A stretch of 64,000 bases of DNA, from NCBI GenBank assembly GCA_958295845.1, contig OY282376.1:2679022-2743021 (forward strand). The letters run 5' to 3'. Shown one piece after another: positions 2,289 through 24,464 of the stretch; positions within the stretch are counted from its first letter, which is position 1; each line of letters opens with the position of its first letter. Source of the stretch: Caldilineaceae bacterium (GTDB lineage: Bacteria; Chloroflexota; Anaerolineae; Caldilineales; Caldilineaceae). Below the pieces are notes generated by a model. That model saw only the letters and a list, made by a program, of their open reading frames with translations. It did no database searches and was not told where the DNA came from. A program made the position numbers and the translations under genes.

Positions 2289-4319
2289 ATGAAGAAACTG
2301 GAACCACGATCCAACGACATCACCCGTAGGCGATTCCTCCAGTTGGGGGCAATGGGCACCGCAGGATTGGTCGCGGCCGCCTGTGCCGGAGGGGATGCAG
2401 AGCCCGCAGCAGAAGATATGCCGGCAACAGCTGCCGAAGCGGAAAGCGAGGCGCCGGCTGCAGCTTCTCCGGGCGGGTACAGAGAGGCGCCGATGCTGGC
2501 CGAAATGGTGGCCGCCGGAGATCTGCCTCCAATCGATGAACGCCTCCCTGCCAACCCCCTGGTTCTCGAAGGCATGGAGGGCATCGGCAACTATGGTGGC
2601 GTAATGCGCCGCGGCTTCAAAGGCGTCTCCGATCGTTGGGGACCCACCAAGATCGCCAGACAGGGCTTGACCTGGTATACACCGGAACTTACGCTGCGCC
2701 CCAACATCGCCGAGTCATGGGAAAACAATGACGACGCCACCGTCTGGACCTTCCACCTGCGCGAGGGCCTGAAGTGGTCGGACGGCGAAGCGTTTGACTC
2801 TGACAACTTCGCCTGGTGGCAGGAAAATGTCATGCTCAACAAGGACGTCACGCCAGCGGTCGGCCGCAACTGGGTGACGGGCTCCGAACGAACGCCGATG
2901 ACCATGGAATTTCCCGACAAGCACACCGTGGTCTTTAACTTTGCTCACCCCAATCCGATGTTCCTCGACCGGGTCGCCCCGTTGACGAGAGACCTTTTTG
3001 CACCCCATCACTACCTCTCCCAATTTCATATGGAGACGACCGACGACAAGGAAGCCCTGGAAGCAGCCGTGGAAGACAGTGGCTTAGACACCTGGACGGC
3101 CCTCTTCTCCGACCGCAACTGGTGGTACCTCAACCCCGAACTACCCAGCCTCTACTCCTGGACCGCAAAGAATCCTCTGTCCGAGGAACTCTTCCTCATG
3201 GAGCGGAATCCCTATTTCTGGCAGGTGGACCCCGACGGGAACCAGATGCCCTATATCGACACCATTAGGCACCGGCTATTCGACACAAACGACGTCTTCG
3301 ACCTGCGCATCATTAACGGTGAGGTCGACTATCAACAGCGCCACGTCACCGCCGCCAACTTCACGTTATACAAGGAAAGTGAGGACAGCGGCGGCTATCG
3401 GGTACAGCTTGGCGCAGGTGACCAGCACGTCTGCCTGACCCCGAACCAGACAGTCCAGAAGCCCAGATTGCGCGAGTTCTTCCAAACCCGCGACGTGCGT
3501 ATCGCCATGTCTATCGCAGTCGACAGAGACACACTCAATGAACTCGCATTCGAGGGGCTCTATACGCCGCGCCAGTACAGCCCGCTAGAACAGTCGCCGC
3601 AGTCCTATCCAAAACAGGCCAACGCCTACCTCGAGTACGACCCGGACCGCGCCAATCAACTGCTGGACGACGCCGGCTACGCTGAAAAGGACGACGACGG
3701 ATTCCGAGTCTATCCCGATGGCAGCGGCGAAACTATCAGCTTCGTCGTCGAAGGTACAGCACAGCCCGGGTCGCCTGATGAGGACGCTGTCCAAATCATC
3801 ATCAGCTACCTGGCAGATGTCGGCATCAAGGCAACATACAAGGGCATGGAACGCTCTCTGTACACAGAGCACTGGGGCGCTAACGAAATTGACGCCGCCT
3901 TCTGGGGCAGCGGACGCTCACTCCTGCCGCTGGTCGACCCCGCCTTCTTCCTCGGCACCGGCCTCGACCGGCCTTGGGGCGAAGCCTGGGGCCGCTGGCG
4001 CCTGGATTCCTCCCACCCTGTCGCCGAAGAACCCCCGGAAGGCCACTGGATCCGCACCATGTGGAACCTGTGGGACGAGATCCTGGTCGAACCGGACGAG
4101 GCCCGGCGCAACGAGCTTTTCTTCCAGATCCTGGACGTCTGGGCAGAGGAGCTGCCGCAGATCGGCTACCTGGGCCAGATCCCCAATCCGCTGATCGTGC
4201 TCAACGGCCTGCGCGGCATCGACCCTGAATATGTGTATCCGCTCAGCAACCCGACATCGCACGGAGGACTGGTGCAGGCGCATACTTTCTACTGGGACGA
4301 TCCGGCCAGCCAATCCTAG
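2289..4319 (+). CDS. ABC transporter substrate-binding lipoprotein, family 5 (peptide/opine/sugar type)
   Basis: 676 residues. The N-terminus carries a Tat motif (TRRRFLQL, residues 12-19), a hydrophobic stretch and a lipobox ending at Cys32, followed by an Ala/Glu-rich linker. This predicts Tat export and lipid anchoring outside the membrane. The body matches family-5 (DppA/OppA-like) binding proteins: an early TPELTLRPNIAESWE segment, WTFHLREGLKWSDG, and later VRIAMSIAVDRDTLNE. The ATG at 2289 follows AAAGGAG with good spacing. No permease or ATPase genes adjoin it. It is followed instead by catabolic enzymes in the same direction, so it probably feeds or senses their substrate and borrows transport subunits encoded elsewhere (inference). 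Confidence 0.85.
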   Translation: MKKLEPRSNDITRRRFLQLGAMGTAGLVAAACAGGDAEPAAEDMPATAAEAESEAPAAASPGGYREAPMLAEMVAAGDLPPIDERLPANPLVLEGMEGIGNYGGVMRRGFKGVSDRWGPTKIARQGLTWYTPELTLRPNIAESWENNDDATVWTFHLREGLKWSDGEAFDSDNFAWWQENVMLNKDVTPAVGRNWVTGSERTPMTMEFPDKHTVVFNFAHPNPMFLDRVAPLTRDLFAPHHYLSQFHMETTDDKEALEAAVEDSGLDTWTALFSDRNWWYLNPELPSLYSWTAKNPLSEELFLMERNPYFWQVDPDGNQMPYIDTIRHRLFDTNDVFDLRIINGEVDYQQRHVTAANFTLYKESEDSGGYRVQLGAGDQHVCLTPNQTVQKPRLREFFQTRDVRIAMSIAVDRDTLNELAFEGLYTPRQYSPLEQSPQSYPKQANAYLEYDPDRANQLLDDAGYAEKDDDGFRVYPDGSGETISFVVEGTAQPGSPDEDAVQIIISYLADVGIKATYKGMERSLYTEHWGANEIDAAFWGSGRSLLPLVDPAFFLGTGLDRPWGEAWGRWRLDSSHPVAEEPPEGHWIRTMWNLWDEILVEPDEARRNELFFQILDVWAEELPQIGYLGQIPNPLIVLNGLRGIDPEYVYPLSNPTSHGGLVQAHTFYWDDPASQS

Positions 4320-20616: not shown

Positions 20617-22038
20617 ATGACCCCTCCAGAACTCTCTCGGACACCCGCTACCGAACTCACCGCCGCTATTCGAGACAAGCAACTCTCTCCGGTCGAGCTG
20701 ACCCAAGCTGTTCTCTCCCGCATCGAGGAGATCAATCCCGCCATTAACGCCTTTCTTGACTGGGATAACGATCTCGCCCTCGACGTCGCCCGCGTCGCTG
20801 AAGACGCAGTCATGCGCGGCGACCGGCTCGGACCCCTACACGGCCTTCCCGTCCCCATCAAAGACCTCGAACCCAGTGCCGGCCTGCGCTACACCAGCGG
20901 CTCCATAATCCAAAAGGACCAAGTGGCCGACTTCGACGGCGCTGTGACCGGCCGAGTTAAAGCAGCCGGAGGCATCATTATCGGCAAGACCAATACACCC
21001 CACCTCGGCCACAAAGATATGTGCGATAATCTGCTAGGCGAGCCGGGCCGTAACCCATGGAACACAGAACGCACCCCCGGAGGCTCCAGCGGCGGTGCTG
21101 CCGCGGCCGTCGCCGCCGGACTCTGCCCTCTCGCCCATGGTTCAGACGGTGCCGGCTCCATTCGCATTCCCGCCGCCCTGTGCGGTGTCTTCGGCTTCAA
21201 GCCCTCATTCGGCCGCCTGCCCTACTGGCCCAACCTCGACATCTGGTCCGCCCGCTCCCACAACGGTCCCATCTCACGCACCGTCGCCGACGCCGCCCTA
21301 TTCACCCAGGCCGCGGCCGGTCCCGACCCCCGCGACCCCACCGCCATCGCCAACCGTCCTGGCGATTATCTTGCTGCGGTGGGAAATCCCCTGCCCGCGT
21401 TGCGAGGCCTGCGCGTCGCCTGGAGCGCCGATTTCGGGTACGCCGCCGTCGACCCCGACGTGCGTCGCCTGGCAGGAGAGGCCGCCCATCGCTTCTCTGA
21501 CTTCGGCTGTAACGTCGAGGCGGTCGACCCAGGTTGGGGTAACCCCCGCAACGGCGCCGAGGTCTGCTGGTTCGTCTCTATGGCCGCCCGCGTCGGCCAG
21601 GCATACGACGAGAACCCTGAAGCCTTCGAACCGAGCCTTGCGGAGATGATTCAACAGGGCCGCCGATACTCCGGCGAAGAACATGGTCGCGCCGAGATGT
21701 CCCGCACCTTGTTCTACCACCAGGCCCGCGAGTTCTTCGAGGAGTACGACCTCCTGCTTACACCGCAGATGCCCCTCACCGCCTGGGGCGTAGATGACTG
21801 GCCCGCCGAGATCGACGGTACACACACCCCTTCGATCTTCGATCGCCTCCCCTTCACCTACCCCTTCAATCTCACGGGCCAGCCTGCTGCCAGCGTCCCA
21901 TGCGGCTTCGCCTCAGACGGCCTACCCGTTGCCCTCCAGATCGTGGGCAGGCATCACGCCGACACGCTTGTCCTCCAAGCCGCAGCCGCATTCGAAAAAA
22001 TCGCGCCTTGGACATCCACTTGGCCTGATATATCATAG
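20617..22038 (+). CDS. Amidase-signature family hydrolase
   Basis: 473 residues. The catalytic triad fits the amidase signature family exactly: K82 (PVPIKDLE), cis-Ser157 in GGSSGG, and nucleophile Ser181 in GAGSIRIP. The K-to-S and S-to-S spacings of 75 and 24 residues match the family. Members hydrolyse amides, ureas or carbamates; the substrate here is unknown. The stop at 22036-22038 lies inside the conserved leader of the mqnA gene that follows, so the two are probably cotranscribed. The C-terminal quarter plus the leader and the next gene were duplicated downstream (23174-24464). Confidence 0.9.
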   Translation: MTPPELSRTPATELTAAIRDKQLSPVELTQAVLSRIEEINPAINAFLDWDNDLALDVARVAEDAVMRGDRLGPLHGLPVPIKDLEPSAGLRYTSGSIIQKDQVADFDGAVTGRVKAAGGIIIGKTNTPHLGHKDMCDNLLGEPGRNPWNTERTPGGSSGGAAAAVAAGLCPLAHGSDGAGSIRIPAALCGVFGFKPSFGRLPYWPNLDIWSARSHNGPISRTVADAALFTQAAAGPDPRDPTAIANRPGDYLAAVGNPLPALRGLRVAWSADFGYAAVDPDVRRLAGEAAHRFSDFGCNVEAVDPGWGNPRNGAEVCWFVSMAARVGQAYDENPEAFEPSLAEMIQQGRRYSGEEHGRAEMSRTLFYHQAREFFEEYDLLLTPQMPLTAWGVDDWPAEIDGTHTPSIFDRLPFTYPFNLTGQPAASVPCGFASDGLPVALQIVGRHHADTLVLQAAAAFEKIAPWTSTWPDIS

Positions 22039-22151
22039 GGCCTGTAGGTCCAATGACGGACACTACGGTCTGTGCAACTGCGACAATCGTAAGTGGCACA
22101 CATCAAATTCTATAGCCCTTTTGGGCCCGTTAAGACAAGGAGGTCTTAACT
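22031..22151 (+). promoter_or_regulatory. Structured mqnA leader, copy 1 (riboswitch-like candidate)
   Basis: 22031-22085 is identical over 55 bases to 23501-23555, and 22027-22151 matches copy 2 at about 114 of 125 positions. Possible helices: ACGGAC (22056-22061) with GTCTGT (22068-22073); the overlapping TGTGCAACT (22071-22079) with AGTGGCACA (22092-22100, one mismatch); GCCC-TTTT-GGGC; and a perfect 8-bp stem GTTAAGAC (22129-22136) with GTCTTAAC (22143-22150), whose six-base loop AAGGAG is the Shine-Dalgarno sequence. The ATG follows at 22152. The first two helices exclude each other. Function is inference. Confidence 0.55.
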
Positions 22152-22994
22152 ATGTTAAACAGGCAACGGCGCCAAGAACTTGAAGGCTCCCCCCAAGCCG
22201 GCACGAATCCCGTCCGTGTCGGCTGCATTGAGTACCTCACCGCACGCCCTCTCTGGCAAGGTCTCGGCGATCACCCCCGCCTCTTCTCACTCAGGTTTGC
22301 TGTACCTTCTGAAGTCTCCTCCTGGCTGCACAGCGGTGAAGTCGACCTTGCGCTAGTCTCCTCCATCGAGTACCTACCTGGTTACCGAATCGTGCCAGGG
22401 GTTGCGGTAACCTCGATGGGATCGGTTGCTTCATTAGCGGCGTTCTCCAGCAAGCCACTGACAGAAGCCAAGACAATCGCCCTCGACACCAGTTCCCGTA
22501 CCGCCGCCGCCCTCATGCGTATCCTCTGCTCCGAATGGTTCGACATTGAGCCGGAGTTCGTGTCCATGCGTCCGAACCTGTCGGCCATGCTCCAGCGCTG
22601 CGATGCCGCCCTTCTCATCGGCGACAACACCCTCTTCGTCGACCACCTCCGCATGGGCCTACACAAGTACGACCTTTGCGACGAATGGCGAGGCTTAACC
22701 GGCCTTCCCTTCGTATTCGGGTTCTGGGCCGGCCTGCCCGATGCCCTGACCCCAGCACACTTGCAGGCTTTGCGCGATTCAAGCCAAGCCGGGGTTACCG
22801 CACTCGACGACATAGCCTGCGCCCACTACCCAGACAACGAGACCCTCGCCGCCTCCAGCGGCGAATACCTGCACAAAAACATCCAGTACCACTTTGACGA
22901 CGACTGCCTTGCCAGCCTGCAGAGGTTCTACGAATCCTCTTCCAAGCTCGGAATTATTCAACAGGCCCCGGACGTCCTGTTCTATGATTCTTGA
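22152..22994 (+). CDS. mqnA: MqnA/MqnD-family protein (chorismate dehydratase-like), copy 1
   Basis: 280 residues, with no signal peptide. It matches the MqnA family, which dehydrates chorismate to 3-enolpyruvylbenzoate in the futalosine menaquinone route: VRVGCIEYLTARPLWQGL near the start, HSGEVDLALVSSIEY, a central RTAAALMRILCSEW, and AALLIGDNTLFVD. The family's usual YLNARPL reads YLTARPL here, with Asn replaced by Thr; copy 2 keeps Asn. The expression signals sit in the structured leader immediately upstream. No other mqn gene is in the window. It may be a true MqnA or a diverged paralogue with another small-molecule ligand. Confidence 0.8.
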   Translation: MLNRQRRQELEGSPQAGTNPVRVGCIEYLTARPLWQGLGDHPRLFSLRFAVPSEVSSWLHSGEVDLALVSSIEYLPGYRIVPGVAVTSMGSVASLAAFSSKPLTEAKTIALDTSSRTAAALMRILCSEWFDIEPEFVSMRPNLSAMLQRCDAALLIGDNTLFVDHLRMGLHKYDLCDEWRGLTGLPFVFGFWAGLPDALTPAHLQALRDSSQAGVTALDDIACAHYPDNETLAASSGEYLHKNIQYHFDDDCLASLQRFYESSSKLGIIQQAPDVLFYDS

Positions 22995-23173
22995 CCCACG
23001 AGAGTGAAGGAGTGCACCGACACAGTATGGTCAGGGGCTGGAGGGGATCCCTTAAGCCTGTCTCCAGGGCGAATTCTCAAAGTCGTTCGGACAACGATGG
23101 GATTCCCCCTACCCCTGATTCCCTTGGAATTCCAATCAGGGAAAATCATGACTCAGAATATGTCTGCATCGCC

Positions 23174-23508
23174 CGCGCCCGCTTCTACATCCAGGCTCTT
23201 GGGTTCTTAGAAGATTACGATCTTCTTTTGACACCTCAGTTGCCTCTCAAGGCCTGGGGTGTCGACGACTCGTCCGCGCAGAACGAAGGCAATCCTACGC
23301 CATCCAACATTGACCGCCTGCCCTTCACCTACCCCTTCTATCCCACCGGGCGGCCTGCCGCCTCAATTCCCTGCGGCTTCGCCACCGACGTCCTGCCAGT
23401 CGCCCTCCAGATCGTGGGCAGGTATCAAGCCGACACCCTTGTCCTCCAACCCGCAGCCGCATCTGAAAAATCGCGCCTTGGACATCAGATTGGCCTGATG
23501 TATCATAG
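23174..23508 (+). pseudogene. C-terminal fragment of a duplicated amidase
   Basis: The frame encodes the last quarter of the amidase at 20617-22038: FLEDYDLLLTPQLPLKAWGVDD, then DRLPFTYPFYPTGRPAAS and VALQIVGRYQADTLVLQ. The catalytic triad region is absent. Near 23465 the run of six A in the intact gene is five A here, shifting the frame past the old stop (position equivalent to 23506-23508) into the leader. No start signal belongs to it. It is a by-product of a tandem duplication that also copied the leader and mqnA. Confidence 0.85.
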
Positions 23509-23621
23509 GGCCTGTAGGTCCAATGACGGACACTACGGTCTGTGCAACTGCGACATTCATAAGTTGCACAAATAGAATTCCATAGCCCTTTGGGGCCCGT
23601 TAAGACAAGGATGTCTTAATC
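23501..23621 (+). promoter_or_regulatory. Structured mqnA leader, copy 2
   Basis: Same layout as copy 1. TGTGCAACT (23541-23549) and AGTTGCACA (23562-23570) pair perfectly here. The stem TTAAGAC (23600-23606) / GTCTTAA (23613-23619) encloses the loop AAGGAT in place of AAGGAG, a weaker Shine-Dalgarno sequence. The ATG follows at 23622. The leader is more alike between copies than the neighbouring coding DNA. Confidence 0.55.
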
Positions 23622-24464
23622 ATGTCTAATTGGCAGCGTCGCCAAAGCCCTGCATGCTCCCCTCAGGCCGGCACGAAACCTGTTCGCGTCGGCTGCGTTG
23701 AGTACCTCAACGCCCGCCCTCTCTGGCACGGTCTAGGCAATCGCCCCGACCTCTTTTCTCTCAAATATGATGTACCCTCGCGATGCTCCGCCTGGTTGCA
23801 CAGTGGAGAAGTTGACCTCGCCCTTCTCTCCTCCATCGAATACACACCCCGCTACCGCGTCGTGCCCGGTGCCGCCATAACCTCCACCGGCCCGGTCTCC
23901 TCAGTCGCCGTGTTCTCCCGCAAACCCCTGACAAGAGCCCGTACCGTGGCCCTGGATTCCAGCTCGCGAACCTCCGTCACCTTGATGCGCGTTCTCTGCG
24001 CCGAGTGGTTCGATATTGAGCCCGTTTACGTCACCATGGGCCCCGATCTGCCCGCCATGCTCAAACGCTGCGACGCCGCCCTCCTCATCGGCGACAACGC
24101 CCTTTTCGTCGACCACAAGGCCTTGAGCCTACGCAAACACGACCTCTGCGACGAATGGCGCGGCATGACCGGCCTTCCTTTTGTCTTCGCATTCTGGACA
24201 GGTCGCCCCGGCGCTCTCACCCCTGCCCATCTGCAGGCCATCCGCGATTCACGCGAAGCAGGCGTCGCAGCACTCGACGACATCGCCGGAGCCCACTACC
24301 CTGGCGACGAGACCCTGGCCGCTACCGGCCGCGCCTATCTGCAAAAGAACATCCAATACCGCCTTGACGTCGAATGTGTCGCCAGCCTGCAGAGGTTTTA
24401 CGCCTCAGCTTCCAATCTGGGTGTCATCCAGCGGGCCCAGCCAATCCGCTTTTTCGACTCTTGA
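23622..24464 (+). CDS. mqnA: MqnA/MqnD-family protein (chorismate dehydratase-like), copy 2
   Basis: 280 residues, the same length as copy 1 and roughly two-thirds identical by eye. It keeps the canonical YLNARPLWHGL, HSGEVDLALLSSIEY and AALLIGDNALFVD segments of MqnA, so of the two it is the better candidate for chorismate dehydratase. It is preceded by the second structured leader and by the amidase fragment. The retained length and intact motifs argue that both copies are still selected. Whether they differ in activity or in control cannot be seen. Confidence 0.82.
   Translation: MSNWQRRQSPACSPQAGTKPVRVGCVEYLNARPLWHGLGNRPDLFSLKYDVPSRCSAWLHSGEVDLALLSSIEYTPRYRVVPGAAITSTGPVSSVAVFSRKPLTRARTVALDSSSRTSVTLMRVLCAEWFDIEPVYVTMGPDLPAMLKRCDAALLIGDNALFVDHKALSLRKHDLCDEWRGMTGLPFVFAFWTGRPGALTPAHLQAIRDSREAGVAALDDIAGAHYPGDETLAATGRAYLQKNIQYRLDVECVASLQRFYASASNLGVIQRAQPIRFFDS

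Follow-up and report, generated by a model that had tools for sequence, protein, structure and literature searches.

A structured leader precedes the mqnA-like genes of one genus

We describe a structured 5′ leader that stands upstream of all 19 mqnA-like genes found in one genus of Caldilineaceae and ends in a hairpin, P4, with the Shine–Dalgarno sequence in its loop. The leader is a real element conserved within this genus, and we give about an even chance to its being a genus-specific 5′ UTR that limits translation, possibly under the control of a protein.

The window, a stretch of 64,000 nucleotides from a 5.4-Mb single-contig genome (G000), carries two genes of the MqnA/MqnD family (PF02621) in tandem, each of 280 codons and each preceded by a leader of about 115 bases. 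As originally predicted, a structured leader is present before both copies, with positions 22031–22085 and 23501–23555 (55 bases) identical and about 90% identity overall. The duplicated unit is larger than was seen in that prediction, reaching back into the upstream amidase gene, the 3′ end of which is duplicated at 78% identity. The genes and leaders of the locus are as follows.

20617–22038, + strand: amidase gene (PF01425, 1.1e-99), the stop codon of which overlaps the −10 box of promoter A
22044–22151, + strand: structured 5′ leader, copy A (covariance model R1, 129 bits; z −4.8; predicted start at about 22044, the first base of P1)
22152–22994, + strand: mqnA-like gene, paralogue A (PF02621, 3.5e-46; tree clade A with five other genomes; motif YLTARPL)
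23172–23508, + strand: duplicated amidase 3′ end, a non-functional remnant before leader B (blastn, 78% to 21701–22038; partial PF01425)
23514–23621, + strand: structured 5′ leader, copy B (covariance model R1, 137 bits; z −4.8)
23622–24464, + strand: mqnA-like gene, paralogue B (PF02621, 1.2e-49; tree clade B; motif YLNARPL retained)

The spacer that follows paralogue A (22995–23170, CTGGAGGGGATCC...CAGGGCGAATTCTCAAAGTCGTTCGGACAACGATGGGATTCCCCC) is non-amidase sequence and was also recognizable between the copies in genome G009.

Searches at the DNA and protein level, and then with a covariance model (R1) built from the 19 leaders, located the leader in 13 of the 17 genus genomes; in G008, paralogue A is split over two contigs. 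It was absent from the four genus genomes without an mqnA-like gene. The covariance-model check that had been proposed for homologous leaders thus succeeded before all 19 mqnA-like genes of the genus and gave none in 400 genomes of the phylum. Two phylum matches were judged to be due to chance, one in G454 (25 bits, no Shine–Dalgarno loop) and one in G194 (P1-like over 23 bases only). Likewise, no leader was found in the sampled other genomes of the family, in a plasmid search or before distant mqnA homologues (approximately 40% identity) from Latescibacterota and Acidobacteria. The window had no Rfam match at the gathering score, and the interval 21900–23700 had none at E values up to 10. In a search of the open-access literature we found no paper on an mqnA leader; the terms ‘futalosine’ and ‘riboswitch’ occurred together only in a review of menaquinone-7 production by Bacillus.

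The upstream amidase gene was found in 16 of the 17 genomes. In two genomes with neither mqnA nor leader (G002 and G007), it is directly followed by an ABC permease gene, the same gene that lies downstream of copy B in the window, and the mqnA-like gene and its leader therefore look like one insertion beside a resident amidase gene.

Secondary structure of the leader

Compared with dinucleotide-shuffled sequences, both window leaders gave a folding z score of −4.8, with none of 200 shuffles as good; across the 19 leaders the score lay between −1.3 and −5.2. The predicted fold consists of four hairpins.

22044–22066, + strand: hairpin P1, copy A (GTAG-GTCC / GGAC-A-CTAC; two covarying pairs, 95.8% of cells paired, probability 1.00)
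23514–23536, + strand: hairpin P1, copy B (probability 1.00; same covariation analysis)
22072–22099, + strand: hairpin P2, copy A (GTGCAA / TTGCAC, imperfect here; two core pairs with compensatory change, 89.8% of cells paired)
23542–23569, + strand: hairpin P2, copy B (same covariation and fold analysis)
22116–22125, + strand: hairpin P3, copy A (short, GCCC / GGGC type, from RNAalifold; no compensatory changes)
22130–22149, + strand: hairpin P4, copy A (TTAAGAC-AAGGAG-GTCTTAA; Shine–Dalgarno sequence in the loop, arms and AAGGA invariant in 19/19 leaders)
23600–23619, + strand: hairpin P4, copy B (TTAAGAC-AAGGAT-GTCTTAA; Shine–Dalgarno sequence in the loop, invariance as in copy A)

The stem TTAAGAC/GTCTTAA around the Shine–Dalgarno sequence, as first proposed, was exact in both copies. 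In P4 the AAGGA lies in a six-base loop closed by 7–8 pairs, with a stability of about −5.5 to −9 kcal/mol for the hairpin alone, and 1–2 bases separate the hairpin from the start codon (2 bases in both window copies). The helix TGTGCAACT/AGTTGCACA of the original prediction is also a real hairpin, namely P2. Its proposed competitor, ACGGAC/GTCTGT, was paired in 58% of cells over 18 distinct homologues, no better than shuffled sequences, lacked covariation and competes with P1 (GTAGGTCC/GGACaCTAC), a helix that had been missed. Another candidate switch helix, CTACG/CGTAG, was 81% paired, showed no covariation and had a probability near 0. Hairpins P1–P4 are mutually compatible and independent, and no alternative fold reached an appreciable probability. 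The proposed switch between mutually exclusive helices is thus not supported, one of its helices not being conserved and the leader not being predicted to be bistable. Individual helices were weak in a few leaders, P1 in copy A of G008 and P2 in copy B of G013 and in G016.

In the MAFFT alignment, 95.6% of cells were paired over 25 core pairs. Double changes were found at four core pairs, two in P1 and two in P2, a number reached by none of 500 shuffles, and slid structures each scored below the actual structure. These compensatory changes exceed chance and modestly support a conserved structured RNA, the covariation consisting of few events within one genus. P3 and P4 showed no covariation, P4 because it never changes.

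Substitution rates differed strongly along the leader. The P4 arms and Shine–Dalgarno sequence had 0 changes at 19 sites, the P1 arms 0.4–0.9 changes per site and the linkers 3.0–3.75, compared with 2.4 at third codon positions. With the P1 and P2 loops and linkers taken together at 2–3.75 changes per site, P4 is the sole invariant stretch. Over the whole leader the genus-wide difference was 0.22 per sequence pair, with P4 evolving much more slowly and the linkers keeping pace with silent sites. Taken together, the presence before 19/19 copies, the modest covariation of P1 and P2 and the extreme constraint on P4 support the proposal that mqnA-like mRNAs share a conserved, structured element. 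The lack of variation in P4 would also be compatible with conservation at the DNA level, or with an extended ribosome-binding sequence.

An exact copy of the P4 sequence (TTAAGACAAGGACGTCTTAA) was seen at 3602–3621 on the minus strand, near the 5′ end, of a 3.65-kb contig resembling a single-stranded RNA phage (L142, IMGVR_UViG_3300034671_000275), which encodes a replicase with YGDD and a maturation-type ORF. This single match is at about the chance level for a collection of that size.

Predicted promoter

A consensus scan gave three promoter-like sites in the region, against 0.6 expected. One predicted promoter lies before each leader.

22008–22036, + strand: predicted sigma-70-type promoter, copy A (TTGGAC at 22008–22013, 17-base spacer, TATCAT at 22031–22036), within the last amidase codons
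23478–23506, + strand: predicted promoter, copy B (TTGGAC at 23478–23483, 17-base spacer, TATCAT at 23501–23506)

Nearly all 19 homologues retain the hexamers and their spacing, with a constant seven bases between the site and P1. Because the promoter overlaps the last codons of the amidase gene, part of its conservation could be coding; the promoter-like site was nevertheless retained before the B copies, where only an amidase remnant is left, and in G009, which has no detectable remnant. These observations suggest that the leader probably starts at its own promoter, and a start at 22044 or 23514 would make P1 the 5′-terminal structure.

Downstream genes and the futalosine pathway

The MqnC model had no match in the genus, and a PF02621 search of the genus returned nothing beyond the mqnA-like genes, hence no MqnD or further protein of the MqnA/MqnD family. 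MenD scored over the cut-off in 15 of the 17 genomes. With MenD as the one enzyme of the classical menaquinone route that was searched, the mqnA-like genes look like orphan chorismate dehydratase homologues beside that route. The closest solved structure is SCO4506 of Streptomyces coelicolor (7ahr), a chorismate dehydratase in which we take Asn17 of the YLN/FLN motif to be catalytic. This Asn is kept in paralogue B and in the single copies, and is replaced by Thr in all six A paralogues, suggesting that paralogue A (YLTARPL) may have changed its function. A ligand from the futalosine pathway, as originally proposed, is unlikely with MqnC and MqnD absent from the genus, and a riboswitch of that pathway is unlikely because the pathway itself is missing there.

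Likeness of the two window leaders

Greater conservation of the leader than of the genes, as originally claimed, was borne out for the window pair, in which the leaders are 90% identical and the genes 75% (the proteins 69%), but not across the genus. In the five other tandem pairs, leaders were 72–79% and genes 67–76% identical, and between copy A and its G010 orthologue the leader was less alike than the gene (87% vs 95%). The gene tree separated clades A and B with full support, placing window copy A in A and copy B in B, and the gene data rejected a clade of the two window copies (p-AU 1e-5). The leader data rejected a B clade that includes window copy B (p-AU 0.01), in trees that are poorly resolved and in which the B clade is broken up even without counting that copy. 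At the sites that separate A from B, the two window copies agree upstream of about 23550 and differ from about 23620 on.

The lack of such an excess in the five other pairs, the lower likeness of orthologous leaders than of orthologous genes and the conflict between trees all speak against reading selection into the particular closeness of the window leaders. The alternative offered previously, gene conversion with its centre in the leader, is favoured by the tree conflict and by an excess identity confined to the window. Given this conflict, local gene conversion in the window lineage, spanning the amidase end and the leader, is the best account of the near-identity, and it would make the greater conservation of leader over gene specific to this window. 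The pair is a clear example of gene conversion between tandem paralogues mimicking exceptional conservation of a regulatory leader.

In G016, which has one full copy, a different contig carries a short piece left over from the 3′ end of an mqnA-like gene (L076, C23:23753–23878), suggesting past loss of a second copy.

Possible role of the leader

A hairpin around a ribosome-binding site suggests lowered initiation of translation. In the reading to which we gave an even chance, the mqnA-like gene would have been gained once in the genus, at the amidase 3′ end, with the leader as its 5′ UTR. Transcription would probably start at the first base of P1, from the promoter within the last amidase codons, and the RNA would fold into the 5′-terminal P1, then P2 and P3, and then P4, the loop of which carries the Shine–Dalgarno sequence shortly ahead of the start codon. 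Ribosome access would be limited by P4, and P1 would probably protect the 5′ end. The exact retention of P4, with no compensating change, makes it probable that sequence and shape are both recognized, whether by an RNA-binding protein dedicated to it or by the ribosome. Gene, leader and amidase end were then duplicated in tandem in an ancestor, and a later exchange of leader sequence in the window lineage would have produced the near-identity. If P4 regulates translation, its 20 bases are a well-delimited element for which 19 natural homologues exist, associated with an orphan chorismate dehydratase homologue in sponge-associated Chloroflexota.

The main rival to a translation-limiting, possibly protein-controlled 5′ UTR is a constitutive element, the hairpins of which confer mRNA stability and a constant rate of translation without sensing anything. 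This possibility, which we hold tentatively and as clearly the less probable, agrees with the independence and compatibility of P1–P4 and with an element tied to one gene only, without a regulon; however, the invariance of the P4 arms in 19 leaders exceeds what a fixed hairpin needs, and compensatory changes would be expected. No trans-acting factor for the leader was found. We regard it as doubtful that the sponge-symbiotic Caldilineaceae have an undescribed class of cis-regulatory RNA specific to this gene, in which the invariant P4 would be bound by a dedicated protein, perhaps the product of an mqnA-like paralogue, or would sense a chorismate-derived compound. In a further reading, the inverted repeat TTAAGAC-N6-GTCTTAA would be a DNA operator to which a dimeric repressor binds, with the RNA hairpin incidental. 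The perfect palindrome with arms free of compensatory change fits such a site, but P4 lies approximately 86 bases after the predicted start, its AAGGA spacer is also invariant, which an operator would not require, and P1 and P2 are left unexplained. Furthermore, the P4 sequence had no further occurrence in the genus genomes, and a search for a regulon of P4-like palindromes gave two extra sites at 2 mismatches, compared with 15 in the control. An operator is accordingly improbable.

Sensing of a metabolite (chorismate, futalosine or menaquinone precursors) by a riboswitch, the original proposal, would suit a chorismate-metabolism gene with a structured 5′ UTR ahead of it and its Shine–Dalgarno sequence in a loop bounded by a helix, an arrangement also seen in translational expression platforms. 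We nevertheless consider it very improbable: no competing helix was conserved, so that the two folds of an expression platform were not found; the near-neutral loops and linkers leave no compact conserved unpaired core; and, beyond the missing MqnC, MqnD and Rfam match, no further genes carry the leader. Even less credible is the absence of any functional RNA, with the leaders alike merely through recent gene conversion. Local conversion is indeed seen in the window pair and stands as the account of the excess likeness of its two copies; for the whole element this reading is refuted, as conversion within a genome cannot explain conservation over 13 species, covariation and a P4 without change.

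Comparison with other regulatory leaders

CsrA is the best known reader of GGA loops, with the SELEX consensus RUACARGGAUGU. As in leaders repressed by CsrA/RsmA, a short hairpin at the ribosome-binding site here has AAGGA in its loop, and AGACAAGGAUGU of copy B comes near that consensus, whereas most leaders of the genus read GGAC or GGAG. Control by CsrA, suggested by the copy B sequence, was ruled out, as CsrA (PF02599) was found in none of the 17 genus genomes while the control genomes were positive. An upstream ORF (MTDTT...) acting as a leader-peptide attenuator was also rejected: its in-frame ATG is present in only 10 of the 19 leaders, and the variation is of a non-coding type, with third positions varying least (0.22 vs 0.36).

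The location in a 5′ UTR is shared with riboswitches and the other cis-regulatory families of Rfam, none of which gave a match. The leader resembles 5′ UTRs with a sequestered Shine–Dalgarno sequence in being structured and in having a hairpin over the ribosome-binding site before the start codon, but here that sequence lies in the loop rather than the stem and no alternative fold is predicted. With 5′-terminal stabilizing hairpins of the ompA type it shares P1, a hairpin starting where the transcript is predicted to begin.
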